From NCBI GenBank assembly GCA_947446815.1, contig CANFGT010000010.1:1-64000 (forward strand): a stretch of 64,000 nt of DNA. Direction: 5' to 3'. Below, piece by piece: positions 14,506 through 35,920 of the stretch (position 1 is the first letter of the stretch; each line of letters opens with the position of its first letter). Source of the DNA: Acidimicrobiaceae bacterium. GTDB lineage: Bacteria > Actinomycetota > Acidimicrobiia > Acidimicrobiales > Ilumatobacteraceae. Position numbers and translations under genes: made by a program. The notes beneath the pieces are model-generated. The model was not told where the DNA came from. It saw nothing but the letters and a program-made list of their open reading frames with translations, and searched no databases.

Positions 14506-14575
14506 CCCCAAAACGAAACGAACGCTCGTACATAGCTCACTCACTATTGGCATGTGAGGACAATTCACAGTAGTC

Positions 14576-17454: not shown

Positions 17455-17476
17455 TTGAATAACTTGTAAGATTCGC

Positions 17477-18550: not shown

Positions 18551-18596
18551 AATTACTCCCCTAAATGGACGCCAATACGCTCTGAACTTTACATCC

Positions 18597-18626
18597 TGGG
18601 TCAGTCGCAGATATCAAATTGACCCA
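18597..18626. promoter_or_regulatory. Inverted repeat upstream of the HaeIII-like methyltransferase gene
   Basis: TGGGTCA and TGACCCA form perfect 7-bp arms around a 16-base spacer, about 50 bp upstream of the methyltransferase ATG. The position suits an operator for a dimeric regulator. No C (controller) protein gene is visible in the block, so the binder could be the methyltransferase itself or a host factor. This is inferred from symmetry only. Confidence 0.4.
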
Positions 18627-18656
18627 AATAATCACGCCAATGAGGAGTTGACCTAT

Positions 18657-19853
18657 TTAGAGGTGCTCTTTCACAATCCAATCAAGAAGTTTTGTTCTGT
18701 CATTAATCCCATTTTTTAGGAGCACTTCAGCGATGTCCTGCCCAGAAAGAATGACAATCGGATGACCGTCGCTTCTTACTTCTTCATATGCTTGTTTATC
18801 TACAACAGACGTTGTTACCAGGACTCCAAACTCGCGGTGTTTCAATCGCGAAATCAGACGACTCATCTCCTTGACGCCGACTTTTGAATTAGGAAATCGG
18901 TAGCACTTGGCTTCAAGCGAGAAGCTGACTCTGACGACATCCGAAATTGGACCTAGCAGCATGTAACCAACTGCGTCACGACCTCCGTCTCGATAACGCC
19001 GAGTGAGTTCGTACTCAATCGGCTGAGCACAACTCAATTGCCACACCGCAGCAGCAATTGGTTCAAACAAAAATGGGTCAGACGAGCAATAATCCAGGAT
19101 GGTCTCAATTAAGTCGCTTGCTAATCCAGCACGTGGTGCTTGGTCTGTTAAAGATCTTGCTGAATGATCGCGCTCAGCCAAAAGTGGCTTGATTCTTCCA
19201 GTGTGGACCCAATCACTCAACACAGGGGGCACTCCCTGCTCATCAGGGTTAAACACCCTCTCGGAAAATACTCTTCTAATCCATTCACCGGAAATTGTTC
19301 CCGTGTCAAGCACCGTAAATTTTGCACGATAATTCTGGAAACGCTGTCCTTGGCTCATCTTCCAAATGGCAACGAGATCGTCACTTTCCGATTTCAATTT
19401 TGTATCAGGAACTGCGAGCCCCTTAAAGACCATGTCGCGTCCTTGCCGCCCTCTTTCGAAAAGTAAAATTATGGGACATTTAGCTCTTTCGTCTGCATCC
19501 CCATTTGCAAGCTCGAACATTTTCTTTAGTTCTTGATTCCCGCGCTTTGTTGTGTCGTGGAGATCCTTTCCGGGGCTTCGATTATCTCCGTAGTACGTGT
19601 ATACGCCCGTATAGGGGTCGAGTTCATCTGGCCATTCAATTTCGCCACCAGTGCTAGTAAGTACAAGTGCGACAAGTCTCTGTCCATCAGAGGATTTTCT
19701 CCGCCGGAATCCACCTGCGTTCTCAAGTCCCGGAATCAGGTGGTGAAGTGGTTCTGAACCTTGCTGCATTTTAGGATCATTCCGATTGCCTTCATATGTT
19801 GCATCAATGACTAAATCTGCACTGTTCAATTTCTCAAAAGGGAATGACGTCAA
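18657..19853 (-). CDS. AspBHI-like modification-dependent restriction endonuclease
   Basis: The N-terminal half fits the AspBHI/MspJI-type SRA-like recognition domain: ADLVIDATYEG (residues 12-22), LENAGGFR (43-50) and an LDPYTGVYTYYGDNRSPGKD region. The C-terminal half is an Mrr-like PD-(D/E)xK nuclease with Asp293 in GGRDAVG, Glu314 and Lys316 in SLEAKCY. Such enzymes cut DNA that carries 5-methylcytosine. The reading frame is open to 20051, but GGAGATTTC lies six bases before a TTG at 19851-19853. That start gives 398 aa and keeps the SRA strand near the N-terminus, so I chose it. It is first in order before the methyltransferase and HaeIII-like genes. Confidence 0.82.
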   Translation of the reverse strand: MTSFPFEKLNSADLVIDATYEGNRNDPKMQQGSEPLHHLIPGLENAGGFRRRKSSDGQRLVALVLTSTGGEIEWPDELDPYTGVYTYYGDNRSPGKDLHDTTKRGNQELKKMFELANGDADERAKCPIILLFERGRQGRDMVFKGLAVPDTKLKSESDDLVAIWKMSQGQRFQNYRAKFTVLDTGTISGEWIRRVFSERVFNPDEQGVPPVLSDWVHTGRIKPLLAERDHSARSLTDQAPRAGLASDLIETILDYCSSDPFLFEPIAAAVWQLSCAQPIEYELTRRYRDGGRDAVGYMLLGPISDVVRVSFSLEAKCYRFPNSKVGVKEMSRLISRLKHREFGVLVTTSVVDKQAYEEVRSDGHPIVILSGQDIAEVLLKNGINDRTKLLDWIVKEHL

Positions 19854-19935
19854 AGAAATCTCCAAACACGAAAGGTCACATTGCAAGCTTCGCAGTTCTC
19901 CCGAGGGCTCAATGAATTCGAGTCGAAGCCCGACT

Positions 19936-19947
19936 ACCCTTAGAGGT
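19936..19947. repeat. Right near-direct repeat at the edge of defence block 1
   Basis: ACCCTTAGAGGT sits immediately before the ATG of the small chromosomal-type gene at 19948. It matches 16486-16496 except for one extra T. Confidence 0.4.
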
Positions 19948-20121
19948 ATGGCAAACCCCAAGCACACCATCCACGTCGGCGTTTCTGCGGTTGCACTGGT
20001 TCTCGGTGCAATTCTCTCCGTCGCAATCGGTGACCCCACCGTGGCTCTCATCTTCTCTGGCGCAGCGTTCAGCGGAATCGGTTACTGGCTGGGCGCAGCT
20101 GCCCAGCGCCGTCATGGCTAA
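19948..20121 (+). CDS. Small membrane protein, 57 aa
   Basis: The product starts MANPKHTIHVGVSAVAL and has two hydrophobic segments joined by IGDPTVA: VSAVALVLGAILSVAIG and ALIFSGAAFSGIGYWLGAAA. It ends in QRRHG. It is predicted to be a small inner-membrane hairpin of unknown role. GC-rich codon use sets it apart from the defence genes on both sides. The stop overlaps the next gene by 8 bp, so the two are probably coupled. Confidence 0.7.
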   Translation: MANPKHTIHVGVSAVALVLGAILSVAIGDPTVALIFSGAAFSGIGYWLGAAAQRRHG

Positions 20122-21040
20122 GGGCTCTAGCCCCGCCAAGCGCACTAACACTGGGCTCGCGCTACTCCTTATTACTGCGCTTCTTGGCGCAGGGGCCACT
20201 GCCCTCTTTGGCAACACCTCGCCCATCTCGTCTTCGTCGTCCACTGCACCGGCAGAACCACCGATGGAAGAACCCGATGGAGTGGCAGGCACTCGCCCCG
20301 CCGAGACCTCATACTCCTGGTTTGATCACGCCTTCAGCGTGGAGCAATTCGATTACGAAATGCAGGACCTTTCTTGTGCCTCTATGGCCAAGGTGATCAC
20401 ACCCGATCTCTGCGGTGTTGCCCGCACCTCTTATACAGACTTCATGGTCGTGGGTAGCGAGGGTTATTGGGACCCTCAAGACACAGACGCTGATGGGTCC
20501 GTATGGGTGCCACTGAATCTCACCGTGTTTACCAAGCGCACAGACAACGGCACGACACGTGCCATCAGTGTTCTTGATGGTGTTCTCGACAAGCAATACA
20601 CCGCCAACAAAGCACAAGTTGATTTGTTCGTTGCAACAGTCGGTGGACAAGACATGTTGGTATTGCACAGGCACTTGTCAAAGGCGAATGCAGACCCGTA
20701 TTCCTTCAGCGAAGAAGTGCAAGTGATTGCCATGTCAAAGACAGGCGCACCAACAGTTGTCGCAACCTATGAAGGTTCTGGCCTGAATGTTGCGGCCAGT
20801 GCAACTCACATCGAGATCTCATCGTTGCGCTATCTCACCTCACAACAGAGTCTTGATGATCAGTGGTATTCACGCATCGTTCTTGTGCCCAACTATTTCG
20901 ATGGTGTGCGCATGGATGAAACCGTGACGTCGGGACCCGCACCTGTGAAGCAAGGTGCCGGCATGAAGAAGTTGGACACTTACGAGTTCCCCGTTGGCCG
21001 CGGCAAGACCGACACTCCCGACACCTCTAATAAGGCGTAA
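20114..21040 (+). CDS. Secreted or membrane-anchored protein of unknown function
   Basis: Starting at the ATG at 20114, the 308-aa product has a KGSSPAKRTNTG basic head, one hydrophobic segment (LALLLITALLGAGATALF), and a Ser/Pro-rich linker followed by an exported domain. That domain has pairs such as DLSCASM and TPDLCGV and a VWVPLNLTVFTKR strand, which recalls DUF4352-like immunoglobulin folds, although I cannot assign it. It overlaps the 57-aa membrane gene by 8 bp. Base composition is chromosomal, so it splits the two defence blocks. Confidence 0.72.
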   Translation: MAKGSSPAKRTNTGLALLLITALLGAGATALFGNTSPISSSSSTAPAEPPMEEPDGVAGTRPAETSYSWFDHAFSVEQFDYEMQDLSCASMAKVITPDLCGVARTSYTDFMVVGSEGYWDPQDTDADGSVWVPLNLTVFTKRTDNGTTRAISVLDGVLDKQYTANKAQVDLFVATVGGQDMLVLHRHLSKANADPYSFSEEVQVIAMSKTGAPTVVATYEGSGLNVAASATHIEISSLRYLTSQQSLDDQWYSRIVLVPNYFDGVRMDETVTSGPAPVKQGAGMKKLDTYEFPVGRGKTDTPDTSNKA

Positions 21041-21132
21041 TCCATAAGACAACTAACTCCCAAGTCATTCCATCTTTTCTCTCCTCAGAATTTTCTGATA
21101 GACAAAACTAGAGATTTAAAGGAATAGAAATC

Positions 21133-22623
21133 ATGGGCAGTGAATGGGAATTTGAAAAAGACAAGTCGCTACAGGTTTCATCTCTCGATGATCTTGAATA
21201 TTCCCTTCATACAGAAAACAATGCCCTTCAAGATGCGATAGAAGAACTTCAGCGAAAGAAGATTGAAGTGGAAGAACTCATCGAGAACATTGATGAAATG
21301 GACATCGATGAATTCATTGGACATGCAGCTATGGCCGCCTCTGAAGACGACCAAGAGATGGCAGTATCAGAGATCATCGCTTCAATGGCGGCCTCCAATA
21401 GCCGTGCCGAATATTGCGCAAGTTTTGGCGATAGTCGTCTCTCATTTTCAGGCGAAACCTTCGTAGACAGACTTTTCGGCCAAGCAATCAACGAAGACCT
21501 CTGGGTTGATTTAGCACAACGCACTGTTTCATTCGTCGGAATTGATTCCAAAGACCACGGGACGATGAAACTCAGTCAGTTCGAGCAATCAGCAGAGGAT
21601 TTATGGGAATATCTGAAAGAAGAAGATGTCTTCTCTGACTCAACTTCAAGTCTCACGAGCGCCATTCTTGCTTCTGGCGTGCTTCGAGACCCTGAAGAAA
21701 TCGTGAAATTAATGCCGAATCTTCTTCCTTATGATTCGAATGCAATTGAAGATCTTGATACAAAAATGCTTTCTTCAATTTATTCATTTCTTTGTCTTCG
21801 CGAGGGTGGCCTTGTGTTCAGTGAAGGGCGAATTGAAACGGACTACAGCGAAGAAATTGTTCTTAATAGCCCTTGGATTCTCCCCTTTTCAGCCGACTCT
21901 TCAACTAGGGGACTTGAAATTCTGTTGGATTCCATTTCCGAGCTTGGACTAGCGATCTGCTCACCAGAAGATGATTTGTTCCCATTTGATCCCAGTCCAG
22001 ATTGGGTTGAAGATGTTCGCAACACTGCAGCTTTCTTATATCCGCAACTCATACGTCCGATTACAGAAGTCAGTTTTTTTTCAAGTAACAAGATTCAGAT
22101 TCTTCTTGTTGAACGCAACAATTTTGTTTACGCATGGGCCGGAATTAGTGACATTGGGATTATCTTCGGATTTGATCCTGAAAGTTTTGTAGTTGTTGGA
22201 ATGCCCAGTCCAGCGATGGCAACTGCAGTTGGTTGCGCAATCAGTTTTTATGTTGATCGCAAGATCAGATTTCAACGAGAAATTCCAGGAACTTTAACTA
22301 CCGAAGTTCATCAGTACCGTGGTCGACATTCTCTCTATCAATATCTTCCCCAGCCTTCGTTCAATCGGAATATCACCGATGTTGCACGAGGCGAACATGC
22401 GCCTCCGCGGGCACACTATGTTGCTCCGCACATTCGACATTTGAATTATGGAAGACCAAACCCAGCACATGTTGCACTTGCGCCAACACAATTGAGAATT
22501 CGCATGGGCTACGGCGACACCTGGGTAAATGGTCACGCTCGAGGAAGCAACAACATCGGTGAGATTACGTTCAGACTTTCTAGATACTCAATGCTTGCGG
22601 ATTCCCTCGGACAATTGAGCTAG
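21133..22623 (+). CDS. Uncharacterised protein at the edge of defence block 2
   Basis: I do not recognise this 496-aa protein. It begins with an acidic, coiled-coil-like helix (LEYSLHTENNALQDAIEELQ, then KKIEVEELIENIDEMDIDEF; about residues 20-65). A long mixed region follows. The C-terminus has closely spaced His/Arg motifs (HYVAPHIRHLNYGRPN, then TWVNGHARGSN; about 430-475), similar in feel to the H-x3-HxR ends of hypothetical proteins on actinobacterial plasmids and islands. An AAGGAA lies upstream of the ATG. The gene is AT-rich and runs convergently with the Sau3AI-like endonuclease gene, with 56 bp between. It has no membrane segment. Confidence 0.65.
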   Translation: MGSEWEFEKDKSLQVSSLDDLEYSLHTENNALQDAIEELQRKKIEVEELIENIDEMDIDEFIGHAAMAASEDDQEMAVSEIIASMAASNSRAEYCASFGDSRLSFSGETFVDRLFGQAINEDLWVDLAQRTVSFVGIDSKDHGTMKLSQFEQSAEDLWEYLKEEDVFSDSTSSLTSAILASGVLRDPEEIVKLMPNLLPYDSNAIEDLDTKMLSSIYSFLCLREGGLVFSEGRIETDYSEEIVLNSPWILPFSADSSTRGLEILLDSISELGLAICSPEDDLFPFDPSPDWVEDVRNTAAFLYPQLIRPITEVSFFSSNKIQILLVERNNFVYAWAGISDIGIIFGFDPESFVVVGMPSPAMATAVGCAISFYVDRKIRFQREIPGTLTTEVHQYRGRHSLYQYLPQPSFNRNITDVARGEHAPPRAHYVAPHIRHLNYGRPNPAHVALAPTQLRIRMGYGDTWVNGHARGSNNIGEITFRLSRYSMLADSLGQLS

Positions 22624-22679
22624 AGCCGTCAAATTAACAGAGATACAGACTCTCTCAGGAGAAAATCTGCGACCACAAT

Positions 22680-24005
22680 TCAAAGTTTGCAAATTACATT
22701 TGCGATGTAATTGCGATTTAACCAAAAACATTGTTTGACATGCTCACCACCCTGTGGAGTTGGCCAGGTGTCCTGCGCATTCTGAGCCTTTGGTCGCACA
22801 TGAGCCACATGGCTTTCACTCTGTCTTGGAAGTTGAGTTGCATCTATCAAGACACGACGTTTAGTTTCTTCCCATACCCGCTGAGCTTCTAGTCGATCTG
22901 CATATGGCATATTCCAATATGCAACCCGTGCAAGTCTTTCAACACCCAGTTCATCAATTTCAAAAATAACAAAAAGAAATTTCTTTTCAATCTTTTCAAA
23001 AAAACTGGAATCTTCCCAATCTTCATTGATGATGTCAAGAAATTTAAAACCGGGGAATGACATTGATTCACGTGGTTTTCCATCTGGATTAACGCGTATG
23101 GTCTTCATCTCAATTCCGGCTTTATCAAGCTCAATGGCAACGCTCTTTCCATTCGACAGAATTCGGATACAGAGGTCTTGATTGAATCCTTTGTGAAATG
23201 CTGCTTTTCTGAAGTAGCCCAACTTTTGAGAAATTTCCGGAACTGTTTTCCCCAAAAAGGGCTTGAACCGTTTCTGAGTTGCTTCCTCAAATGTAAGACC
23301 CCTCGAAACACCCATATTCCCCGACTCAGACTCATGCGATTCAATGAGTTTGTTCAGATAATTAGGCTTGAAAGAGAATGCACGAGATTTTGCACCAACG
23401 CTAGAAAAGGGCTGCTTCCGCAATTTCTCTTGGGTGCCCCCAGCCCCCTTTCGACACGCTCCAAGATAGAAGGTGTCGCCTTCCGACAATTCATGTGCCA
23501 ATCCATCTGCAATCTTGTTACGAATAAATTCCCAATCTCTCTTTATTGTGGGAAAATCATCTTCTGGAATGCTGTAGAGAAGTGGATCAAGAACAAATTT
23601 TCTATCGTAAATTGGCTTTTCTGCGTCATATAGATAAAAAAGAATCAGCATGAGTTTGCACTTCTTCATCAGTGAAGATGATTCAAAGTTCTCGTGAACT
23701 ATGTTTTCGAAATCAATCATCTTCAGAACTAATCGTTCTTTCGCTTTATAATTTCCCGGATTTTTCTTAAGAACTCCAGTCGTCTTTAATTCGACTCCAG
23801 CTTCAGGAAAATCCGGTCCTGCCACAGGACCAGGCGAATGTTGGAAATAATAATTCTCAACGAGGAGACCCAAATCTCCCTTATTCCTAATATTCTCTTT
23901 GAAGGTATCAAGCTCAACGACTTGCGCTAGCGACTTTCCGGTGAGACCCGATGCAAATTTTAGAATTGATTTCGGGGAAGTTTTATCGTATTTCGGTGTT
24001 TCCAT
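22680..24005 (-). CDS. Sau3AI/MutH-like restriction endonuclease (predicted GATC)
   Basis: The 441-aa product has the MutH/Sau3AI catalytic set: Glu50, then Asp65 and Glu72-x-Lys74 in AGPDFPEAGVELKTTG. The D-x6-E-x-K spacing equals that of MutH. A second, MutH-like C-terminal half (about residues 230-400), with a conserved FKFLDIINEDWEDS segment, fits the two-domain layout of Sau3AI. It would cut before the G of GATC when the site is not methylated. It is divergent from its cognate methyltransferase with 134 bp between. The last 40 residues (from about 400) do not resemble the rest and may be a small C-terminal extension. Confidence 0.88.
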   Translation of the reverse strand: METPKYDKTSPKSILKFASGLTGKSLAQVVELDTFKENIRNKGDLGLLVENYYFQHSPGPVAGPDFPEAGVELKTTGVLKKNPGNYKAKERLVLKMIDFENIVHENFESSSLMKKCKLMLILFYLYDAEKPIYDRKFVLDPLLYSIPEDDFPTIKRDWEFIRNKIADGLAHELSEGDTFYLGACRKGAGGTQEKLRKQPFSSVGAKSRAFSFKPNYLNKLIESHESESGNMGVSRGLTFEEATQKRFKPFLGKTVPEISQKLGYFRKAAFHKGFNQDLCIRILSNGKSVAIELDKAGIEMKTIRVNPDGKPRESMSFPGFKFLDIINEDWEDSSFFEKIEKKFLFVIFEIDELGVERLARVAYWNMPYADRLEAQRVWEETKRRVLIDATQLPRQSESHVAHVRPKAQNAQDTWPTPQGGEHVKQCFWLNRNYIANVICKL

Positions 24006-24056
24006 CAGGAATGCCAGCCTCTCATCTCATTTCAACTTGCTTATTCAGGTTCGATG

Positions 24057-24082
24057 AGTTGATCTCGACACATGGATCAACT
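24057..24082. promoter_or_regulatory. Inverted repeat with two GATC sites between the Sau3AI-like R and M genes
   Basis: AGTTGATC and GATCAACT are perfect 8-bp arms with the spacer TCGACACATG. Both arms end in GATC, the predicted recognition site of this R-M system. The repeat lies 52 bp from the endonuclease ATG and 58 bp from the methyltransferase ATG, in the shared promoter region. It is a natural candidate for methylation-dependent control of one or both genes. This is inferred from the symmetry and the site content. Confidence 0.55.
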
Positions 24083-24139
24083 ACGCTCTGTATGTCTTTT
24101 GACTCTATTACCAATAGATAAATCAAAGTTAGGCCACAG

Positions 24140-25390
24140 ATGACAATCAAAATTGCAGAACTTTTCGCCGGAATCGGTGGATTTCGCGTGGGCTTCGAAA
24201 ACGCCAATACGGAACTTGAACAGTTGGATTTATTCAAAGTTGTTTGGAGCAACCAATGGGAACCAGGCGAAAAGGCGCAACATGCTTCTCGTGTCTACGA
24301 ACATCACTTCGGCCCCGACGGGCACTCAAATGAAGATATCTCTACCGTTGATCCGAAAAAGATTAGACCTGCGCTTGACATCCTCGTTGGCGGCTTCCCT
24401 TGTCAGGACTATTCAGTCGCTAAACCACTCAATAAAGCAAATGGACTCGAGGGGAAGAAGGGAGTTTTGTGGTGGGATATCCACCGATTCCTGGAAGCTA
24501 AGAAACCCAAGATGGCGATACTTGAAAACGTTGATCGCTTACTTGTTTCACCCGGTAATCAAAGAGGTAGAGACTTTGCAATTATGCTTGCAACTCTCAA
24601 TGATCTTGATTACGCCGTCGAGTGGAGAATTCTCAATGCAGCAGAGTACGGCTTCTCGCAGCGACGTCGAAGAATATTTATTATTGCCCACAAGAAGGGA
24701 ACTGAGGGGTACCGAAGAATTAGGACTTCAAACCTTGACTCTCTTCTAGCCACAGGATTAATTGCAACTGCATTTCCTGTTGAACCCGAGACTCTTTCTG
24801 CATCAGTTTTTGAATTAGAAGGTGAAGTTTGGGAAATTACAGAATCCTTTAACCAAGGTGTCGGAAGAAAATCACCGTTCCTCAATGCCGGTGTGTGTAT
24901 TGACCGCAAAGTTACGACACAGAGAACACTTCCTCTCTTTGAAGGTCGTAGTAGAACGCTCGGTCAAGAACTCGTCAAGAATGAATCCAAAGTACCCCTT
25001 GAATACTTCATCACCAATGAAGAATTAGAAATTTGGAAGAGACATAAGGGCGCCAAAAAAATTATGCGTACTAAAAAGAACGGGATTCAATACGAATACG
25101 CCGAGGGCAAGATGAGTTTTCCAGACTCAATAGATAAACCTTCACGCACCATCATCACTAGCGAGGGGGGTCGAACGCCTTCACGTTTTAAACATGTCGT
25201 TCAGACTGAGTCGGGCAAATTTAGACGACTACTACCTGAAGAACTTGAGAGGTTGAGTGGTTTTGAAACAGGACATACAGCGCTACCAGGCCTCACAGAT
25301 GCACGACGCGCTTTCTTTATTGGAAATGCACTTGTAACCGGAATTGTTAAGAGATTTGCAATCACAATCGCTCGGGAGAAATTCCTTTAA
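24140..25390 (+). CDS. DNA (cytosine-5) methyltransferase, M.Sau3AI-like (predicted GATC)
   Basis: The 416-aa product has motif I ELFAGIGGFRVGFE (about residues 7-20), the M.Sau3AI-like NQWEPGEKAQHA region, motif IV VGGFPCQDYSVAK with the catalytic Cys, KKGVLWWDIHRFL, motif VI LENVDRLL, motif VIII RRRRIFI, and the C-terminal IGNALVTGI. The stretch from NQWEP to ENVDRLL follows M.Sau3AI closely, so GAT-5mC is the expected product. It protects the host from the divergent endonuclease. Its stop overlaps the stop of the convergent 1103-aa gene by three bases. Confidence 0.93.
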   Translation: MTIKIAELFAGIGGFRVGFENANTELEQLDLFKVVWSNQWEPGEKAQHASRVYEHHFGPDGHSNEDISTVDPKKIRPALDILVGGFPCQDYSVAKPLNKANGLEGKKGVLWWDIHRFLEAKKPKMAILENVDRLLVSPGNQRGRDFAIMLATLNDLDYAVEWRILNAAEYGFSQRRRRIFIIAHKKGTEGYRRIRTSNLDSLLATGLIATAFPVEPETLSASVFELEGEVWEITESFNQGVGRKSPFLNAGVCIDRKVTTQRTLPLFEGRSRTLGQELVKNESKVPLEYFITNEELEIWKRHKGAKKIMRTKKNGIQYEYAEGKMSFPDSIDKPSRTIITSEGGRTPSRFKHVVQTESGKFRRLLPEELERLSGFETGHTALPGLTDARRAFFIGNALVTGIVKRFAITIAREKFL

Positions 25391-28300
25391 CCAACTTGTA
25401 GTGGGAACATCGAAAGCGCAAGCAAAACTGCGTATGTCACCCACCTTGGCGCGATACGAGCTCCATCAATTAGCGCCTGCATATGCGAAAGAGACTGTGC
25501 ACGTGCATATATGCCGTCATATGCCAAAACGGCAATGTCATTTAGAAACCATTTATACTGCGGATCACTTTTCCAGACCGCTTTAGCTGCATACTGAGTG
25601 AAAATTTCCTGATTTAGATAATTCTTCACATTCCGATGGGCACGGGATACAACAGCTTCATGCCTTCTACGCCAAAGAGAAACTTCAGATTCTTTTGGAA
25701 AAATATCAAGAATGCTGATGACAACTGCGTCCCACTCGGCATCCATTGATAGTGGTTGACCGTCACGGACACCTATGAATTGCCCTAATGCAGAAAGCAG
25801 CACTTCAGGCGGAAACTGGACAACACGACGGAGTTGCTGATCAAAATCAGCTGCCAGAATCGCACGGTTCGGAATCGCTTCAATAACGCGAGATTCACCC
25901 GAATTCGGCGAGATTCCAGAAATTGGAATTTTTGGCCAACCAAGTTTCTCAGACCATCGACATTGAGTTTCAAATGATTCCGACCAAGGTTCAATTGCGC
26001 AAGCAAGAATTGGTAATTGACTCCACACAAGCTCCGAATCTTCCGGATTTATTGAAAGATTGATGGAGTCCTCTGCTTCAAACAGAATTGGCAGAAGAGA
26101 TAACGAAATAGCGATTTTGTCTCGTTCATCAATTACTTGTCTGCTCAGTGCCCTGGAGACAAATCCAACGATTCCTTCAGGTTCGTTCGTGAGTAGCTCG
26201 TAAATAATCGCAAAATCACGTTGCGTTAAAGCTCGGCCATTGTGATCGGCAACATTTCGCGCAAGCAATGCAATTAAGACTTCCCCATTATCTTTTACGT
26301 CTCCACTCCTAATGTTCTTCAACGTCCCTGAAGTAACCGCCTGGATAATACGATCCACTGCATTTTCACAATCAAAATCCACACCACTCTGAAGCGTGAA
26401 ATCACAAGTATTGGAATCGCCTTGAATCGGCAGGTCAGGCTCCAGTATCGAGGAACTCTCCACACGCAGCAAAGCTCTATATCGTCCGGAACGATGACCT
26501 TTAGGCATCAAGATTTCAAAAGAATGTCTCTGATTATCGGAAAGCATTAATGAGAAGCTCTTTTCCCATGGTCTATCAAGATTCCAAATCCGTAGTGCCC
26601 TGCTATTGAACGGACGATTCTCTTCAATATTCACTTCAACAAGCGCTGGATTAATTGACTTGTCTCGTTCCATAATCGAGATATTTGCGACGTATTCGGA
26701 AACAATACGCCCAACAGTTATCTCCTCGCCTACGCCTAATCTGACAGTGACTGAGAATTCTTCATTGTTATTTTTCTCAATCGCTTCAAGAAAGACAGTC
26801 AAATCAAAGGACCAACGGCCTCCTCTTGTTAAGACTTGATAACTCGAGATTTCTTCCCCATTTGTTTGTAGTGAGACGACTAAATCACTGCTGATCCCCG
26901 TTCGGAGATTCAGAAGTACCGAGTGGGTGGAGAGCAAATAATTGAGACTTAAATCAAATTGATTCTGTCCAACGTCTGTGAATGGCTTCCCGCCCATGGA
27001 GATATTCCAGCAAAACCGAACTGGCCTTATCTCAAGAGTCAAAGAACCGAGAGTTACGTTTACTGAGTCGACTCCGTCAGAAATTGTTAAATCCACTTCA
27101 GAGGACACAGAAGAAATTTCAAGGTTCACACGATCACCGGGAAGAGCAATCGGAGGATCTTGCTGTATCAACAACCCGCTTACAAGCACAATCACCAATG
27201 GCTTCATTCGCATTCCAATGGGACCATGAACCTCAATTGAATAGGTTCCATCGCCATCAAAAAGTTCTGAAATATCGCACTCATCTCTGAAAATAGGAAG
27301 GTGGGAAAGCGGCACCTTCCTGGATTGTGGTCCAGTTACCTCAACATAGACGAGGTCTGGATTCACCTCTCCAAGTTCGATTCTTAGCACTGGTGGTTCA
27401 TCGTGAATTATTCCATCCGCATGACGTACTAATGATTTTGGAATACTTGACTCTGAAATAGAGATATGTGAAGATCCCCGACGAAACTCAATTTCAACCG
27501 CAGATTCACTTTCAGATTTGGTTTTGTCTCCGAGTACCAGCCGCTTAGTGGTTCTAGTATCAATTTCAATAAATCGCCAATCGGCCCAATCGTCTAGTCG
27601 TGCTGGAAGATCATCGGCGAAAGTCCCGCCACTAATTACTGAGGTCTTCGGATGAACGAGTGCCAGTACTAATGAATCCACTACATCGACACGACCATTT
27701 ATCTCGGAGAGCAATCTATTTGTGGTGGCACTAAAAAAATAAGCGGGAAACTCTGAATAAGAACGAATTACCCTTGTACTTACAATTCTTCCCAATTCAT
27801 CTTGAGCTGATACCTCATAATCGGATGCTTGCCTGATTGAAGTCTCTATAGCTTCCGAGTAATCAACTAAATAGTCAGTTCCAATAGCATTAGTTACGCG
27901 CCAATTTGAAAGCTGACCTTCCTTCACAGGAGGAAGTACCAGAATTGGACCCGAACAAGAATATGGATCAATCTCAATCCAAGGCTTTGGAATTAATTGG
28001 GAAGTTCTAGAAGCTGAACCTTCCAAATTCGGTGCAACGTCCATGACAGCTTGAGCAAGATGCTTGGGCAGACGAGCAACGCTTGAATAATCGGGGTCTA
28101 GAAGCACCTCATTGATTTCCCCCAATAAATCAAGGGCAATCGAATCGGCTTCTTTCAAAAGTCTCCGAGGAGCGGCCCAGACTCCTGCATATCCGTTAGG
28201 TGATGAATTCCAAAATCTAATTTGCTCGTCCGGAGTGTGACGATGCCTTCTGATTGCTGTTTGCACGATTCGCAGCAAATCATCCACATTCTTAATCGGA

Positions 28301-28698
28301 ATCCCGCTATGCATCGTTACAGGAGTCATGAACCGAAGCGCGTTGTCTTCTTCCACCAGGTGCTCAAAAGTCTCAAGCCCTACAGCCTCTATCGCATCCC
28401 GCGTGAAGACGGCGAGTTGCTGAGGATTCATGCCTAGTGGTCGACAAAGGTGTGCAAGGTCATCTGACGACCAAAACTCCCGCCCATTTCTCTCTTTAGC
28501 AAGATTCACAATGTGCAACACAAAACAAGCCGGATATCTGGGGCGACCATGTGTCACTAAAGCTGGTCCACAGTCCCGAACCACTTCTGATGCTTCTGAT
28601 ACCAACGCATCTGGAAATCCCAGTTCAAAGACGAGACGAATGGACTTAAGAGCCTTTAGGACTTTAAGTTCAATCAACTCTCTGGTTTCAATCTCCAT
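25387..28698 (-). CDS. Large uncharacterised protein, last gene of the helicase operon
   Basis: I do not recognise this 1103-aa protein. The N-terminus (about residues 20-200) is helical, with HGRPRYPACFVLHIVNLAKE, an EFWSSDDLAHLC segment and a tract rich in Arg and His (AIRRHRHTP). The middle (about 400-780) is rich in short beta strands with GDRVNLEISS-, GTYSIEVHGP- and YRALLRVESS-type repeats, suggesting several Ig-like or jelly-roll modules. The C-terminal 300 residues are helical again with many Trp. No ATPase, nuclease or methyltransferase motif is visible. It starts 15 bp after the AddB-like gene in the same direction, so it is likely a dedicated partner of that complex. Confidence 0.72.
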   Translation of the reverse strand: MEIETRELIELKVLKALKSIRLVFELGFPDALVSEASEVVRDCGPALVTHGRPRYPACFVLHIVNLAKERNGREFWSSDDLAHLCRPLGMNPQQLAVFTRDAIEAVGLETFEHLVEEDNALRFMTPVTMHSGIPIKNVDDLLRIVQTAIRRHRHTPDEQIRFWNSSPNGYAGVWAAPRRLLKEADSIALDLLGEINEVLLDPDYSSVARLPKHLAQAVMDVAPNLEGSASRTSQLIPKPWIEIDPYSCSGPILVLPPVKEGQLSNWRVTNAIGTDYLVDYSEAIETSIRQASDYEVSAQDELGRIVSTRVIRSYSEFPAYFFSATTNRLLSEINGRVDVVDSLVLALVHPKTSVISGGTFADDLPARLDDWADWRFIEIDTRTTKRLVLGDKTKSESESAVEIEFRRGSSHISISESSIPKSLVRHADGIIHDEPPVLRIELGEVNPDLVYVEVTGPQSRKVPLSHLPIFRDECDISELFDGDGTYSIEVHGPIGMRMKPLVIVLVSGLLIQQDPPIALPGDRVNLEISSVSSEVDLTISDGVDSVNVTLGSLTLEIRPVRFCWNISMGGKPFTDVGQNQFDLSLNYLLSTHSVLLNLRTGISSDLVVSLQTNGEEISSYQVLTRGGRWSFDLTVFLEAIEKNNNEEFSVTVRLGVGEEITVGRIVSEYVANISIMERDKSINPALVEVNIEENRPFNSRALRIWNLDRPWEKSFSLMLSDNQRHSFEILMPKGHRSGRYRALLRVESSSILEPDLPIQGDSNTCDFTLQSGVDFDCENAVDRIIQAVTSGTLKNIRSGDVKDNGEVLIALLARNVADHNGRALTQRDFAIIYELLTNEPEGIVGFVSRALSRQVIDERDKIAISLSLLPILFEAEDSINLSINPEDSELVWSQLPILACAIEPWSESFETQCRWSEKLGWPKIPISGISPNSGESRVIEAIPNRAILAADFDQQLRRVVQFPPEVLLSALGQFIGVRDGQPLSMDAEWDAVVISILDIFPKESEVSLWRRRHEAVVSRAHRNVKNYLNQEIFTQYAAKAVWKSDPQYKWFLNDIAVLAYDGIYARAQSLSHMQALIDGARIAPRWVTYAVLLALSMFPLQVG

Positions 28699-28713
28699 GA
28701 TGGCAATCCGATA

Positions 28714-31491
28714 TCAATCTTCTGGAATCTTCCAAACCAAGCAATGATTCCTCACTGGGCAACTGATACACACATCTTTCTTCTGCTCACCGTGAACAGG
28801 TGGAAGAAATTCTTTCTGACCGTATTGGAAATAGTCAATATCTACGACTGCACCCGTTGATGCGCTCTGATACGCCATTGAAAGCGGATCATCACTTGAC
28901 TTGTTGCCATCTAAGGTAAATATCCATTCTTTATACGCCCCGCTTCTCTGCCTGATAGCCGCCTTAGCTTCACTACTACTACGCTGCCCTCTTGAAAACT
29001 GCCTCCACAGGTCTGAACAAGCACGCCGTGCTTTCACAACTCCCATACGGGTGGACAGAATTGAAATCAGATTTCCGAACAGCATCAGATGATGATGTTC
29101 GGCCGTAAATGAAGCAGATGGTCCCATCGCCCATTGCAGGGCAAAACGCCGCGAACATGCGATAGCCGATGATGCTGCAACCACATCAATCTGGTCAATT
29201 GCGGATTTTAATTCGACTTTCTTACTTTGATTTTTTCTTGGGTGCACAAAATTGACAACTGGAGAGCTCAATTCAATATCAGACGAACTCTTCATTTTCA
29301 TGCCTCCAGCGCGAGTGAGGATGGCCTCGGTTGGACGATGACCCGGTTCGGACATAAGTGCGAGAATTGGAGAGGGATTGGCATCTTCACCACCTTCTGT
29401 GGTGATATAACTCAGCCGAACAATATTTCCATCTAATGCCCCATTTAGACCAAGCGAGAATAGGTAGAGGTCACTCAGAGAGGCTGTACGAGATCGCGTT
29501 TGTAGAATTTCAATTGCAATCTCATCAATTGCTGAAGAGTTTTTGATGTTTTCAACGTTAAATGGCCAGCCAATACCACCGGCACGTCCTGGAAACTTTC
29601 CGTCTGCAAGATTCGCTAAGTGAATTTCTGAATCAACTTTTCTAAAGCTGAATTCATCCAGTGATCGCAATTCCATGATTGCACTATTGCGAGAATCTTC
29701 CCCATCTTCCGTGAGACTGAAATCCGCCTTGCGACCAAGAAGAATGTCGACTGCATCAACTAAACCTTCAGCAGAGACTTCTGCATCTAAATCAATGTCC
29801 ATCCCCGAGATTTTTGCTTCAATTTCACGTCTTTCCGATTCGGGAAGATCACGCATGGCATTCAACAGGTTGGACTTTAAGAATTGGACATGACTCTTAA
29901 ACGACACTTTCGGGTTTTTTACAATCTGCGCAAGTATCTCCGATATGCCATCAATGATTCTCACAAGTGTCTTTGCTTCATCCTCAGTGATATCGGCCCA
30001 AGGAGCCAGGCGAATTGGATTTGCAACGGCATTCTTGATTCTCGCGACATCGTCAATATTTGTTCTTCTCGCCCCAAATTGTGAAACCTCAGCCACGACC
30101 AAACGATGTAGCGCCACAGCTCGTTCTTTCCATTCAGAAACAAGGTCACAGCCCTCGAAGAATGGCAGAACCCTCTGAAGAATAAATGATTTCTCAATTG
30201 TCGAAAGTTCATCCCCGCTTATTTGTAAGAATCCACTATCAACGATGTCAACTAATGCCTTTGAATTCAAACAGACTCGTAAATTTCCGCCCCTATCCAA
30301 GGTGATACAGCTATGAATACCATACAAATAGGCCCCAATCGGCAGCAGTGCAAGATTCGTCCGACCAAGTTGAGTCATACCTCCAAAACGTTCTACGAAG
30401 CGGTTGGCATCTGATGCCGAAGCAGCGAAGGTTCTCGGCACCTTCTTTTGGCTAGCTTGCGCAAGAGTTCGATTGGACGACCAGTGTCTAACAAATTGGA
30501 TTGGAGTTGAGAATTTTTCAATGACAACTTCCCCGGCAAGCTTTGATTCCTCGACCAAGTCTCCTCGCAATGCTGCATGAAGACCCTGTAATGCCACCCC
30601 TGGATTGCCGACCACCTTGCGGTATTCCGTAGGAGGCATGTTCCACTTTTCTACAAAGAACCAACGCCAAACTTCACTTGTTGGGCTTTCACCATCATCA
30701 TGCACGATAAAGATTTGTTCCACATCATCTAAGCGGTTCAGCAATTGAAAAAAAGCCCACTGAGGAGGCGTAAAGAAGTGAAAGCCGTGATAGACGATTG
30801 TTCTTCGACCAGAACACGGTCCATACACTTGATTCAGCGCATCATAAATTCTCTTTCTTAGCGACTTGGCCAATCTTGATGTACCGGCTTCAAACTCCTC
30901 TAAATCAATCCAGAGCTCATCCCTAACAGAAGTTACTGCGGGATAATTCTTCTCTAAATCCACCCATGCATTTGCAGCAATTTCTGAGATTCCACTGAGA
31001 TTGCTCAACATCCCTGGTTCAATACCAGCAGAAATTAGGGTTTGAATTGATTTCAGAATGTCAAAGCGTGATTCTAAAAAGACACGACGTAAACCTTGGG
31101 AATAGTTTCCGCGATACAAGAATTCTCGAAGATGCTGCTGATAGGACATCGAAAGCCAGATTCTTCTGCCAGCTACTTTCTCCTGCCAATCAGAAACAAG
31201 GCTTGAGTAATCTCCCACCTTCTTCTCTAGATAACTCTTCTCAAATTGGGTATTTGATGGGAACTCAGAAATTGGAACCTGAAGTTCCCCTTCCATCCCC
31301 CCCATCACAATGACATCAATCAAAGTAGCAACCGCTATTGCTGCCGCTCCGGTATCCCTTATTGCTCCTGCAAGTGAAGTCGTTGCGGGAATATGAGCCA
31401 GTTCATTCCACCTACGACCTGATGATGTGAGTTCTGACTCCAGAGTTTCGAAAGAAACATCGTTGAATGCAATTGTTTTCCAGTTACCCAT
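28714..31491 (-). CDS. AddB-like protein with Fe-S cysteines but a reduced nuclease domain
   Basis: The 925-aa product resembles AddB: a VYHGFHFFTPPQWAFFQLLN segment near residue 250, an LANLADGKFPGR strand near 640, and four C-terminal cysteines (Cys779, Cys908, Cys911, Cys917; the last three in C-x2-C-x5-C). These match the Fe-S ligands that staple the AddB nuclease domain. Only about 128 residues separate Cys779 from Cys908, and I find no strand with a D...(E/Q)xK signature between them, so the nuclease is probably lost. No Walker A is present. It abuts the helicase stop with no gap, so the two are likely subunits of one complex. Confidence 0.75.
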   Translation of the reverse strand: MGNWKTIAFNDVSFETLESELTSSGRRWNELAHIPATTSLAGAIRDTGAAAIAVATLIDVIVMGGMEGELQVPISEFPSNTQFEKSYLEKKVGDYSSLVSDWQEKVAGRRIWLSMSYQQHLREFLYRGNYSQGLRRVFLESRFDILKSIQTLISAGIEPGMLSNLSGISEIAANAWVDLEKNYPAVTSVRDELWIDLEEFEAGTSRLAKSLRKRIYDALNQVYGPCSGRRTIVYHGFHFFTPPQWAFFQLLNRLDDVEQIFIVHDDGESPTSEVWRWFFVEKWNMPPTEYRKVVGNPGVALQGLHAALRGDLVEESKLAGEVVIEKFSTPIQFVRHWSSNRTLAQASQKKVPRTFAASASDANRFVERFGGMTQLGRTNLALLPIGAYLYGIHSCITLDRGGNLRVCLNSKALVDIVDSGFLQISGDELSTIEKSFILQRVLPFFEGCDLVSEWKERAVALHRLVVAEVSQFGARRTNIDDVARIKNAVANPIRLAPWADITEDEAKTLVRIIDGISEILAQIVKNPKVSFKSHVQFLKSNLLNAMRDLPESERREIEAKISGMDIDLDAEVSAEGLVDAVDILLGRKADFSLTEDGEDSRNSAIMELRSLDEFSFRKVDSEIHLANLADGKFPGRAGGIGWPFNVENIKNSSAIDEIAIEILQTRSRTASLSDLYLFSLGLNGALDGNIVRLSYITTEGGEDANPSPILALMSEPGHRPTEAILTRAGGMKMKSSSDIELSSPVVNFVHPRKNQSKKVELKSAIDQIDVVAASSAIACSRRFALQWAMGPSASFTAEHHHLMLFGNLISILSTRMGVVKARRACSDLWRQFSRGQRSSSEAKAAIRQRSGAYKEWIFTLDGNKSSDDPLSMAYQSASTGAVVDIDYFQYGQKEFLPPVHGEQKKDVCISCPVRNHCLVWKIPED

Positions 31492-34400
31492 CTAAAGACC
31501 TTTCACTTTCCTAATCAAATCACTCCATGTTTTTGAATCAGACAATGATCTCGCTGTCTTCGGACTGTCAGTCTTTATAAAAACAACCAACTCTTCTCTC
31601 GCACGTGTAGTGGCCACGTAAAGTAAGCGTGCCTCTTCGGATCTCACTTCATTTATCTCTTCGTCCCAAGACGCATCAGACTCAGAGACATTGCTAATAC
31701 GAACTTGTCGATTATCTCTTTTTAGATGCCATTCCCATACGACTCGGGGATTGTTCTTGGCATCAATCGTGATTACCGAGTTAAATTTGCGACGCTTCTT
31801 TGAGAATTGATCCCAGGTACGTGGAATCAGGACATTGTCAAATTCAAGACCTTTAGATTTATGAACTGTAAGAGCAGTCACTTTGCCAACAAGAGATTCT
31901 TGATTGAACGGCTCGTCCTCGTTGGAATTAGTAGCAATCTGAAGTTGAAGCCATTGAAGAATTCGTGGAAGCGAAATCGGCGTATCTGAAAACTCAGCAT
32001 CCATCAACATCAATAAATGTTCCAAGCACCGCACATAGCGCGGACGCTCTACTGATTCATTATTCCCTGGCATTTCACAGGAATCCGGGCTGAAGTGCTG
32101 CCAACAAAGAACTAGCCAAGAGAGCGCTGGCATCTTCCCTACTAGTTTTTTCAATGAAATCATTCGCAGTCGTAAGCCATCCAAATCAGACGTCTCAAAA
32201 CTGCCAGTACTAAGCGACGACAGACGGTCTATCCAAGAAATCGGTGCATCAATTGCATCTTCCCAGACACTCCGATCGGCTGGGTCAATTCCTTCGGGCG
32301 CACCCGTTGACATAATTCGCGCAGCCCACCGCGTTTCAAGCAACTCAAGAAGAGCACCGCTATCAAATGGATTCACAACTGCTTCCAGAAGGGCGCGCAT
32401 TTCACGGACAGCTGGAACTCTGAAAAAATCTCCACCTACTACGAGCTCGCAAGGAATCCCAACTTCCACAAGTTTCTGTTTGATTTCTATTGCTGTCCAA
32501 TTTTGCCGACAAAGAACCGCTACATCAGGTTTCCTATCGTGTTTCTTGGAATCCTCGATCCAAGCCCTGACTTGATCAACCGCATCACCTAAGTACTTTT
32601 TCTCATTGGTAACAGTTAAATCAACAGCCTTGCTTTGGCCTTTCCTCTTTGGGTTTGCCTCCAATCGATCTTCGTTAGATACATATTCAAGAAGACCATC
32701 TTTGCCCCATGCCTCAAAGTATGGATGGAGTGAGTCCAGCAGGAATTTACCTGAACGAAAATTTCTTGAAAGTGGATATGGCTCCAACGTCCCGAATTCA
32801 ACATACTTAGCATTCAAACTCTTGAATGCATTTCCCTCTGCGCCTCTAAACCTATAAATTGCCTGCTTGACATCGCCGACAACAAAAAGCCGAGCATCTA
32901 ATCGCTTTCGAATTTCGACGAACATACTCATCTGCTCATCGTCGGTGTCCTGAAATTCATCGACGAAGACATATTTCGGTACTCGAACTGAGATTGGACC
33001 AGGCTGTCGAAGAACAGCTAAAGCAGTTGTAACTAACTTTGACGTCGGGATTGCCTGATTGTCTTCACATATCTCTGCGAACTCAATTCCAATTTGATCA
33101 ATCACTGTTTTTACAATCTTTGAAGCATCAAGATCAATTGTTGAGATATTTCTTGAAGGAAGAGGCCAGGACAATGAGGATTTGTTTCCGCCTGAGAGAG
33201 GCATGATTTCAATTCCGTTGTTGTCAAGTTTGTTCCAGATGCTCTCAATGAGTTCTCGCCATTCGTGCGCAGCGGGCACTTCAGATGGTCCCCAAGAATC
33301 AAGAATGACCTCTAGATGCGGCGATAAAGAGCGGTACAAAACTTCGCGAAATTGCATAGTCAATTTTGATACCCGAAATCCAGGTGAAAGTCCGAGTGTC
33401 GCTGCACCTTGTTGAGCGATTGATTTGGCATATGACTGAATCGTTGATATCTCGGACGAACTCAATTGCATCATCCAGGCCACTACTGGAAGAACACAAT
33501 TTCGGGAAAGCCTCTTTCGAAGCACAAGGGTCTTTGTTAAACGCTCACGCATTTGTCTTGCGGCTTCTCGCGTAAAGGTAACGAGAACAATTTCATCAAG
33601 TCGGAGTTCCGAAGACGATGCGAGACCAGTTTCAGAATCAATCGTTTCAGCGTTTGCAAGTAGAAAAACTATACGTTCAGACATAGTTTCGGTTTTGCCG
33701 GTTCCTGCACCAGCTCTCACTACTATGTCTTCATCAGGGGATGCATGAACGATTTCATATTGTTTTTGATTTATCGCACCAGAATTAGCGGCTAATTCAA
33801 GGATCTTCTTTGACTTCGGTGTTAATTGAGAAAAATCAATTCCATCAACAATCGTGTGCGACATCTCAAATGCTTCAGGGACGATTGCCCATTCCAGAAG
33901 TCGGCTATCCTCAAACGCCTCAAGTTCTATAGCATCCATTTGATGTTTCTTTGTTGGAGTAATCAAAAACACTCGAATGCCATAATGAAGCAGTCCCAAC
34001 AACTCATCAACGTCAATGTTCTGATCACCAATTTGAAGAACGGAATACTTGGGTACAGTGCGAAGTTTTAGTGTTTCAAGTGCGAGGACTTGAAGACCTA
34101 ACTCAAAATTGTTACTGATTACGTTCTCAATCTTGGCAACTTCGTCCGCTGTACTTCCGTTCTCATTCTGAACTACAGATTTGACACTCTTTCGCCTCAA
34201 ATTGCGTTCAATTGGCGCCATCACTCCAAGCGGTACTGGCTTACCTTCTCCTTCATCCGGTAATGCGGAGACCCTGTTTCCAGACATGTCAAATTCGGGT
34301 CCTGAAATCGGTCGCATCGCAGATTTTGGCCAGACCCACGCATCAATCTCAGATAAGTCAGATGCCCAACGAATATCTCGCCTACCAGCTTCAATGAGTT

Positions 34401-34788
34401 CGTCGATGGACCCAACAAACCACTGACCTAGTCCACCACGACTTGAGGAGTCAAAAAGAACAACATTGACTTCACATTGCGTACCGTGATGTACGCGCAA
34501 GTAATCATTTACTTTTGCTCGTTCCATCCAATGTTCACGCTCGCCGGTAATGGGATTTGAGTGTGAAGTAGTTCTGAACTTAACTTCCCAATAAACAGTG
34601 ACGCCAGCTTTCGTGGCCATTAGATCCGGGGCGCGGACCATACCGCCATTGACTGCAATAAGAGGAGCCTCGCTGCCTGAGCCGACACCAGCCAAGTTCA
34701 TCACGACCCACTGTTGCGCGGACAAATGCGCAGACCACCTGCGCTCTGCTTCCCTCCACAGAGAATTTTCATCAACTTCGAAACTCAT
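31492..34788 (-). CDS. UvrD/AddA-like SF1 helicase with an N-terminal PD-(D/E)xK nuclease domain
   Basis: Starting at the ATG at 34786-34788 (1098 aa), the protein opens with a restriction-like nuclease domain: Asp55 in VRAPDLMATK and Glu68-x-Lys70 in YWEVKF. A linker follows, then the SF1A helicase: Walker A AGAGTGKT (359-366), Walker B VDEFQDT (609-615), the VVGDVKQAIYRFRG motif III/IV region, LSRNFRS, the TVHKSKGLEF motif V and the YVATTRAREEL motif VI. It ends soon after motif VI, so the usual AddA C-terminal nuclease is absent. The start is 4 bp after the upstream stop with AAGAGA as SD. An upstream start at 34830 would overlap that gene. Confidence 0.85.
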   Translation of the reverse strand: MSFEVDENSLWREAERRWSAHLSAQQWVVMNLAGVGSGSEAPLIAVNGGMVRAPDLMATKAGVTVYWEVKFRTTSHSNPITGEREHWMERAKVNDYLRVHHGTQCEVNVVLFDSSSRGGLGQWFVGSIDELIEAGRRDIRWASDLSEIDAWVWPKSAMRPISGPEFDMSGNRVSALPDEGEGKPVPLGVMAPIERNLRRKSVKSVVQNENGSTADEVAKIENVISNNFELGLQVLALETLKLRTVPKYSVLQIGDQNIDVDELLGLLHYGIRVFLITPTKKHQMDAIELEAFEDSRLLEWAIVPEAFEMSHTIVDGIDFSQLTPKSKKILELAANSGAINQKQYEIVHASPDEDIVVRAGAGTGKTETMSERIVFLLANAETIDSETGLASSSELRLDEIVLVTFTREAARQMRERLTKTLVLRKRLSRNCVLPVVAWMMQLSSSEISTIQSYAKSIAQQGAATLGLSPGFRVSKLTMQFREVLYRSLSPHLEVILDSWGPSEVPAAHEWRELIESIWNKLDNNGIEIMPLSGGNKSSLSWPLPSRNISTIDLDASKIVKTVIDQIGIEFAEICEDNQAIPTSKLVTTALAVLRQPGPISVRVPKYVFVDEFQDTDDEQMSMFVEIRKRLDARLFVVGDVKQAIYRFRGAEGNAFKSLNAKYVEFGTLEPYPLSRNFRSGKFLLDSLHPYFEAWGKDGLLEYVSNEDRLEANPKRKGQSKAVDLTVTNEKKYLGDAVDQVRAWIEDSKKHDRKPDVAVLCRQNWTAIEIKQKLVEVGIPCELVVGGDFFRVPAVREMRALLEAVVNPFDSGALLELLETRWAARIMSTGAPEGIDPADRSVWEDAIDAPISWIDRLSSLSTGSFETSDLDGLRLRMISLKKLVGKMPALSWLVLCWQHFSPDSCEMPGNNESVERPRYVRCLEHLLMLMDAEFSDTPISLPRILQWLQLQIATNSNEDEPFNQESLVGKVTALTVHKSKGLEFDNVLIPRTWDQFSKKRRKFNSVITIDAKNNPRVVWEWHLKRDNRQVRISNVSESDASWDEEINEVRSEEARLLYVATTRAREELVVFIKTDSPKTARSLSDSKTWSDLIRKVKGL

Positions 34789-34792
34789 AAAA

Positions 34793-35266
34793 TTATCTCT
34801 TAACCGCTTCAGGCTTACCCGAGACCTCAAGACCTAGCTTGATCATGTCATCCATCAGAGAAGATTTACAACGTCCATATGAATCTGGTTCTTCTCCACA
34901 TTGCGTCTTCCAGAGAGCGAATACTTTAAGAAGCATGTCCTGCGGCAGCAATTCTGATACACCCCATTTCGCCATAATTGAACTCTTCTCTGTAAACGTT
35001 CTACGCAGGGCCTCATACCGAAACTCAATGTCGGATGAAGTTTTCTTGTTGTCTTCAGTTACTGACCTTGAGTTTCTACGAGGCGCTCTAGTTTCCTGAA
35101 TCTCTTCACCGCTTTCCAATTTTGAAGCAAGCCTTCTGGACGCCCGAGTATTTCTGAATGTCAGTTCATGTCTAATCTTTTTCAGAGTAATTTCATCTTG
35201 ACTTTTCTCAATAGCTATGGCTTCAAGCTTCTCAAAACTGAACGAGGCATAAGGTCTTTGGGGCAT
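34793..35266 (-). CDS. Small helical protein, first gene of the helicase operon
   Basis: This 157-aa protein is not recognised. It is highly charged and predicted mostly helical: FSFEKLEAIAIEKS, then a DEITLKKIRHELTFRNTRAS segment (about residues 24-43), a basic low-complexity linker (RAPRRNSRS) and a C-terminal helical part ending in KPEAVKR. The basic character suits nucleic-acid binding or an adaptor role. It leads the four-gene unit and is divergent from the GIY-YIG gene with a 117-bp gap that should hold both promoters. Confidence 0.6.
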   Translation of the reverse strand: MPQRPYASFSFEKLEAIAIEKSQDEITLKKIRHELTFRNTRASRRLASKLESGEEIQETRAPRRNSRSVTEDNKKTSSDIEFRYEALRRTFTEKSSIMAKWGVSELLPQDMLLKVFALWKTQCGEEPDSYGRCKSSLMDDMIKLGLEVSGKPEAVKR

Positions 35267-35383
35267 AGAAACTCCTTCACAAAGAAACTAATCTTCGGCT
35301 GGTGCTTGCTTTGCATCGCATCTGGTCTTCGTTCCCAGAATCAATTTCATCTCAAAATTCACTCACGATAAGGAACTGTGGAA

Positions 35384-35884
35384 ATGTCATATTTGAGTGA
35401 ACAATTACACTCCCTCAAGAGTGGTCCACTTCATCATTTTGCTGACTGGCCAAACATGGACATGCCACGAGCTGCAGCCGGCGTGTATTCCATCTGGAAT
35501 AAGAGTGATGAATTTGTCTATAAAGGAATGGCCGGCAATGGCAAGACCGCGGACGACATCGCTACCGCTCTCTCCCAAGGAAGGACTACAGGGCTTCGTG
35601 ACCGACTGCGCAGCCATGCTTCAGGCCGTCGCTCTGGCGACCAATTCTGCGTGTATGTCCAAGACCTATTGCTTCTTCCTCAACTAACGGTTGAGGACAT
35701 TGACAAAATCGTCACTCGCGAGTTAGCGATCGATCGACTTGTTCGCGAATACGTTCATGAAAACTTGAGCTATCGATATGTCATCACTGAAGACGGCAAA
35801 GCAGCGCTAGAGCTTGAGCGCCATATCATTTATGGTGCTTTAGGCGATCACCCAATCCTTAATCCACCAGCATCGTTGCGTTAA
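35384..35884 (+). CDS. GIY-YIG nuclease-family protein
   Basis: The 166-aa product has the GIY-YIG core: AAGVYSIWN (the 'GVY' strand), EFVYKGMAGN (the 'VYxG' strand), RLRSHASGRRSGD with the catalytic-type Arg, a LELERHII helix with the metal-ligand-type Glu, and an NPPAS end. It is a stand-alone single-domain nuclease. AAGGA lies 9 bases before the ATG at 35384; a GTG at 35378 is in frame but too close to that SD. It is divergent from the helicase operon and directly precedes folP. Composition is intermediate, and it may be the border gene of defence block 2. Confidence 0.8.
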   Translation: MSYLSEQLHSLKSGPLHHFADWPNMDMPRAAAGVYSIWNKSDEFVYKGMAGNGKTADDIATALSQGRTTGLRDRLRSHASGRRSGDQFCVYVQDLLLLPQLTVEDIDKIVTRELAIDRLVREYVHENLSYRYVITEDGKAALELERHIIYGALGDHPILNPPASLR

Positions 35885-35920
35885 TTCCAAGCCTCTAACA
35901 ACGCCAAGTAGTCTGCACCT

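Follow-up and report, generated by a model that had tools for sequence, protein, structure and literature searches.

Results

A helicase and an AddB-like protein are encoded side by side

We analyzed a 64,000-nucleotide stretch of DNA from an Acidimicrobiaceae bacterium (GenBank assembly GCA_947446815.1, contig CANFGT010000010.1, positions 1 to 64,000; hereafter the window), focusing on an operon of four genes on the minus strand. From first to last, these genes encode a 157-amino-acid protein (P0004, 34793-35266), a superfamily 1 (SF1) helicase of the UvrD/AddA type (P0003, 31492-34788), a 925-amino-acid AddB-like partner (P0002, 28714-31491), and an 1103-amino-acid orphan (P0001, 25387-28698). 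The order and shared strand are as described in an initial annotation made from the DNA letters, with gaps of 0 and 15 bp separating the last three genes. That annotation presented all four as one rearranged AddAB-type system. Our main finding is that the two central genes, here called the pair, form a core that recurs across bacteria and descends from the AddA/UvrD and AddB lineages, apparently as a previously undescribed AddAB offshoot.

Several lines of evidence identify P0003 as a helicase. Pfam matches it to UvrD-helicase (4.5e-36) and UvrD_C (1.9e-28), its top match among PDB profiles is AddA (3u44, 1.1e-59), and the motifs AGTGKT (residues 375-380), DEFQD (624-628), and VATTRA are invariant in our alignment. 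Translation almost certainly begins at the ATG at 34788, 4 bp past the stop codon of the first gene, yielding 1098 residues, and not at the TTG at 34830 listed for this frame; residue numbers given here follow the TTG form, and subtracting 14 converts them to the ATG form. The protein has no C-terminal nuclease of the RecB type, as every aligned member ends soon after the final helicase motif. The initial annotation had placed the nuclease at the other end of this subunit, and that is indeed where a candidate is seen: the N terminus carries a PD...ExK-type motif (P68-D69...E82-V-K84) that is kept in Knoellia and reads EVT, with the lysine lost, in G423 (G and L numbers are our handles for genomes and loci). 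The only Pfam match in this region is to Hjc, below threshold (E 0.057). The SF1 helicase is borne out by Pfam and PDB profiles; the putative PD-(D/E)xK domain is recognized by its motif and is the only nuclease candidate of the window pair.

The second core protein, P0002, has no significant family match by itself, and a PDB sequence search gave no direct AddB hit. A profile built from eight relatives, when compared by hhalign with a profile of 11 canonical Firmicutes AddB proteins, aligned over 518 columns with a probability of 92.6 and an E-value of 4.5e-7. All 25 AddB-like proteins share four cysteines that correspond to the iron-sulfur (Fe-S) ligands of AddB (C779, C908, C911, and C917), and these account for four of only seven invariant columns. 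The catalytic residues of the AddB nuclease (GxxDRxD / DYK-type) were not recognizable when the alignments were inspected by eye. An AlphaFold model built from five sequences was too poor to be used for the fold (mean predicted local distance difference test score, pLDDT, 41.8). Together, these sequence features indicate an AddB-like protein that has lost its recognizable catalytic motif and retained the cysteines of an AddB/Cas4-type cluster. The earlier description of this protein as an AddB-like scaffold missing its nuclease is therefore right about the lineage and the motif and overstated about the domain, which is not wholly gone, as the four cysteines remain.

The pair is conserved, patchy, and accessory

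The first signs that the two genes travel together came from a relative on a Geobacillus plasmid and then from one in Exiguobacterium. The helicase and AddB-like genes are adjacent, with the helicase first, in the window and at all of at least 25 further loci of the clade, spanning Actinomycetota, Bacillota, and Bacteroidota; these loci are a sample from a profile search of genome contigs and whole-genome searches, not a census. L052 has an interrupted AddB-like gene, and in L187 this gene is split. In a tree that included RecB, UvrD, and phage helicases, made by a quick method and with long branches flagged, 26 of the 27 pair helicases form one clade (Shimodaira-Hasegawa-like approximate likelihood ratio test support of 100) and all 13 AddA proteins fall on the other side. 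The remaining locus, L188, was rejected as a clade member because it lies outside the clade and its gene order is reversed. This divergent AddB-like/helicase pair (L188, 9155-14072) sits beside DndABCDE and is possibly a sister family. Pairwise distances of the helicases and AddB-like proteins are strongly correlated (Mantel r 0.956, 0 of 2000 permutations), a value that common ancestry alone can yield.

The pair is rare wherever we looked. The AddB-like gene was found in 1 of 396 phylum-wide genomes; further searches found the pair in 7 of 295 and 1 of 247 genomes, a helicase-based search in 2 of 297, and a search of Bacillales in 14 of 249, one of which is outside the clade, leaving 13 of 249 within it. 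No relative of P0002 appeared in viral contigs or phage records, and a helicase scan of the viral contigs returned only generic UvrD proteins that have no partner, the best being L008. The distribution of the pair is thus patchy and accessory. Nor is the pair a normal recombination set, because the same genome encodes a complete RecBCD operon elsewhere and none of 20 relatives carries the AddB-like gene; the initial annotation had considered that close relatives might use these genes as ordinary chromosomal recombination machinery. We found no description of the pair in PADLOC (2023 copy), Pfam, NCBIfam, PHROG, or the open-licence PMC literature, though a later or unseen description is possible. 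AddB, AddAB, and RecB are absent from the ARMADA/YprA paper (PMC12458937), and AddB and RecB from a reappraisal of Dnd (PMC10853773) and a survey of BREX (PMC12839542).

The outer two genes of the operon are local extras. The 157-residue protein has no convincing match in PADLOC, Pfam, NCBIfam, or PHROG, and its best match among the loci we fetched has an E-value of 0.014. The 1103-residue protein has no match in the same four databases and a single relative among 396 genomes of the phylum (G133, E 8e-10), which directly adjoins a DruE-like helicase and not the pair. Relatives of either gene are absent from every other pair locus, so a conserved four-gene system was rejected: at the loci sampled, the genes co-occur as a pair and not as the full set of four proposed initially. 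The region in G133 (L005, 2-18656) also contains PglZ and BrxHI genes of BREX and an AAA_12 helicase-nuclease gene, and is possibly a Druantia-like system with a partner other than DruH. In a low-confidence, single-sequence AlphaFold model of the 1103-residue protein (mean pLDDT 36.6), both termini are helical and the middle (377-776) is rich in beta structure, in light of which the protein may be an added DruH-like sensor. Comparison with two DruH proteins revealed no sequence homology and so did not support membership in the DruH family itself.

The operon lies in a probable insertion together with a Sau3AI-type system

Next to the operon is a restriction-modification (R-M) system predicted to recognize GATC. 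It consists of a Sau3AI-family endonuclease (22680-24005, minus strand; NCBIfam restrict_Sau3AI, 397 bits against a cut-off of 300) and its cognate C5-cytosine methyltransferase (24140-25390, plus strand; PADLOC MTase_II, 2e-149), whose gene overlaps at its tail with the 3' end of the 1103-residue gene. Farther away are a HaeIII-type R-M system, comprising an endonuclease and a C5-methylase (16489-18550), and an AspBHI-like modification-dependent endonuclease (18657-20051). At the edge of the island, a plus-strand gene (35378-35884) encodes a GIY-YIG-like protein. The initial annotation had the operon sitting between two R-M systems and a GIY-YIG nuclease; all of these are present, but the two R-M systems share one flank of the operon, and the GIY-YIG-like gene, which is on the opposite side, is matched by Pfam below its cut-off (E 0.0029).

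The operon is part of a low-GC island (G+C content 0.43-0.47, compared with about 0.55 in the flanks), and a tRNA-like element of undetermined anticodon (14433-14508) lies near the border of the low-GC region. Scans for promoters and terminators scored the real sequence no better than shuffled versions. A genome of the same genus, G1503, matches the window from 35916 onward; upstream of the match, where its contig ends, it encodes a protein end similar to the product of the window gene at 19991-21040 (28% identity over 79 amino acids, E 1e-4). This arrangement suggests a single insertion of about 15 kb that brought in the operon along with the Sau3AI system. This probable unit (21041-35915) starts with the gene for a 496-amino-acid protein that has no Pfam match (21133-22623) and continues through the Sau3AI-type system, the four-gene operon, and the GIY-YIG-like gene.

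Pair loci are rich in restriction and modification genes

Nearly every copy of the pair is near restriction or modification genes. Using the window proteins as queries, we found homologues of the C5-methylase at 10 of 26 other pair loci, compared with 0 of 74 control loci carrying AddA/UvrD-type genes (Fisher 3e-7), and homologues of the Sau3AI-type endonuclease at 5 of 26 versus 0 of 74 (Fisher 9e-4). Including the window, endonucleases of the Sau3AI type occur in three subclades and two phyla (L174, L175, L178, L179, and L181). Other partners include lone C5-methylases, HsdR of type I R-M (L051 and L182), a type III endonuclease (L052), BREX genes (L171 and L184), DpdE/F/H genes (L053, L054, L183, L185, and L187), and Dnd genes (L053 and L054), with DndG also among the partners. 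A second UvrD helicase adjoins the pair at about 11 loci. The initial annotation had proposed a neighborhood search for the four-gene order; what recurs in defence neighborhoods well beyond the source genome is the pair.

Two loci types deserve separate mention. At L053, L054, L144, and L145, Dnd phosphorothioation genes and DpdE/DpdF/DpdH-type genes accompany the pair in what is apparently a hybrid of Dnd modification and Dpd-type restriction. At L176 (14587-18240), ZorA/ZorB-like genes of the Zorya type, judged by eye, lie beside the pair and a GATC-type methylase.

The N-terminal module of the helicase differs between subclades. It is of the PD-ExK type in Actinomycetota, with the loss of the lysine in G423; a NERD domain is found in L053 (1e-10), L183 (5e-10), and L185 (4e-6), with similar motifs in other members; and the module looks degenerate in L007 and L179-L181.

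Discussion

A putative engine for destroying restricted DNA

Given that the pair is nearly always beside restriction or DNA-marking genes, we infer a role in destroying invaders: the pair would unwind and destroy DNA once a restriction system has cut it, acting as an AddAB-derived helicase-nuclease of two subunits that has turned into a defence accessory. We put the probability of this reading, which is built from sequence comparisons, at roughly 55%. In the window, the Sau3AI-type enzyme, and possibly the HaeIII-type enzyme as well, would cut unmodified invading DNA; the pair would load onto the fresh ends, where the SF1 motor would unwind the duplex, the Fe-S AddB-like subunit would clamp or split the strands, and the N-terminal PD-(D/E)xK domain (NERD in several relatives) would degrade one strand. 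Host DNA would be spared because methylation prevents the first cut. Members that have no recognizable nuclease would depend on other nucleases or serve a different purpose. Many phages inhibit host RecBCD or AddAB, and a specialized enzyme might evade inhibitors aimed at RecBCD. Along these lines, it has been proposed that phage end-binding proteins antagonizing RecBCD sensitize phages to Gabija (PMC12407980).

A number of observations weigh against this model. The nuclease domain of the window helicase is a short motif, without its lysine in G423, and no N-terminal nuclease domain was recognized in L004, L051, L052, L171-L173, L182, L184, or L186, including both Geobacillus proteins. In G423, the pair is followed immediately by a lone C5-methylase, and no restriction enzyme was recognized. 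The enrichment of methylase and Sau3AI homologues has to be read in light of the longer stretches at pair loci (mean 20.5 kb, versus 17.0 kb for controls) and of the fact that the pair loci are partly related to one another. Finally, defence islands gather unrelated genes, and proximity is not cooperation.

The members lacking a recognizable nuclease keep alive the main rival, in which the pair processes accidental restriction breaks in host DNA and feeds recombination, limiting self-toxicity; unwinding for repair fits these members better than destruction does. Relatives of AddAB and RecBCD are repair enzymes, and the association with cutters also counts in favor of this model. On the other hand, genomes bearing the pair can already have RecBCD, and the pair is also found beside BREX and Dpd-type genes, where the need to repair host breaks is less obvious. 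We consider a self-repair role unlikely.

The lone methylase in G423 raises another alternative, that restriction is carried out by the pair itself, which would sense replication intermediates or DNA that is foreign or unmodified while neighboring methylase or phosphorothioation genes mark self, with no separate cutter, as for DruE (PMC13192584). L053 and L054, with their Dnd modification genes plus DpdE/F/H-type genes, are also consistent with this idea. Many loci, however, have a complete cutter (Sau3AI, HsdR, or the type III endonuclease), and neither core protein has a visible target-recognition domain, making direct restriction by the pair slightly less plausible still than self-repair. 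Least probable is that the pair is an accessory recombination module that gathers in defence islands, functionally unlinked to its neighbors: although some loci are on plasmids or near an integrase and partner types vary widely, the recurrence of Sau3AI-type partners in separate subclades and the methylase enrichment argue otherwise.

Extending the model of destruction after restriction, the pair might be a shared plug-in engine for destroying DNA flagged as foreign, recruited separately by GATC cytosine methylation, phosphorothioation, BREX, and type I and III R-M. Under this tentative scheme, to which we give somewhat less than an even chance, the AddB nuclease would be non-working, the N-terminal module would be swapped between lineages (PD-ExK, NERD, degenerate, or none), and the Fe-S domain would be kept for gripping or sensing DNA, not for catalysis. 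More generally, should the pair act on restricted DNA, restriction systems could bring their own end-processing enzyme and need not rely solely on host RecBCD or AddAB. This offers a testable answer to the fate of invader DNA after the restriction cut. It would also tie together type I, II, and III R-M, Dnd, BREX, and Dpd, which are usually studied separately, and would present the AddB Fe-S fold naturally uncoupled from nuclease activity.

Comparison with known systems

DpdE/F/H, DndA-E, or BREX genes surround several relatives of the pair, but the pair matches none of the models for those systems and none of their genes is in the window operon. With Druantia III, the likeness lies in the 1103-residue protein, which resembles DruH in size and in its rough helix/beta/helix layout (a low-confidence model). 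DruH, a sensor of the YjiT family, carries immunoglobulin-like domains, and the helicase-nuclease effector of Druantia III is DruE (PMC13192584); no match to DruE, a YprA-type superfamily 2 helicase, was found among the window proteins scanned. Gabija shares a UvrD-type helicase with the pair, and GajB models match P0003 (best 7.7e-37, below RTasHel; PADLOC). It differs in that the pair has the AddB-like partner in place of GajA, the OLD/TOPRIM nuclease, for which no model matched in the operon or in the neighbors tested.

In the Listeria immigration control region, unexplained "DNA helicase genes" are flanked in 20 of 30 cases by Sau3AI-like or NgoPII-like R-M systems (PMC10059834). Like the pair, these helicases lie beside Sau3AI-type systems, a likeness by description that we treat as a lead; the pair may put a name to them. 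The repertoire of that region comprises HaeIII/NgoPII-like, AspBHI-like, and Sau3AI-like systems (PMC10059834), which the HaeIII-type R-M system and AspBHI-like gene of the window (16489-20051) parallel.

RecBCD and AdnAB belong to the same enzyme class, though the pair has neither RecD nor the double motor of the AdnB type. The closest comparison is with AddAB itself. Both have an SF1 A subunit and a partner of the AddB fold encoded by adjacent genes, and both have Fe-S cysteines in the AddB-type arrangement C...CxxCx5C. Unlike AddAB, the pair has neither the C-terminal nuclease of AddA nor a recognizable AddB catalytic motif, and its nuclease, if any, is at the N terminus of the helicase. 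The helicase gene comes first, whereas addB precedes addA in canonical loci, and the pair forms a separate clade with an accessory distribution.

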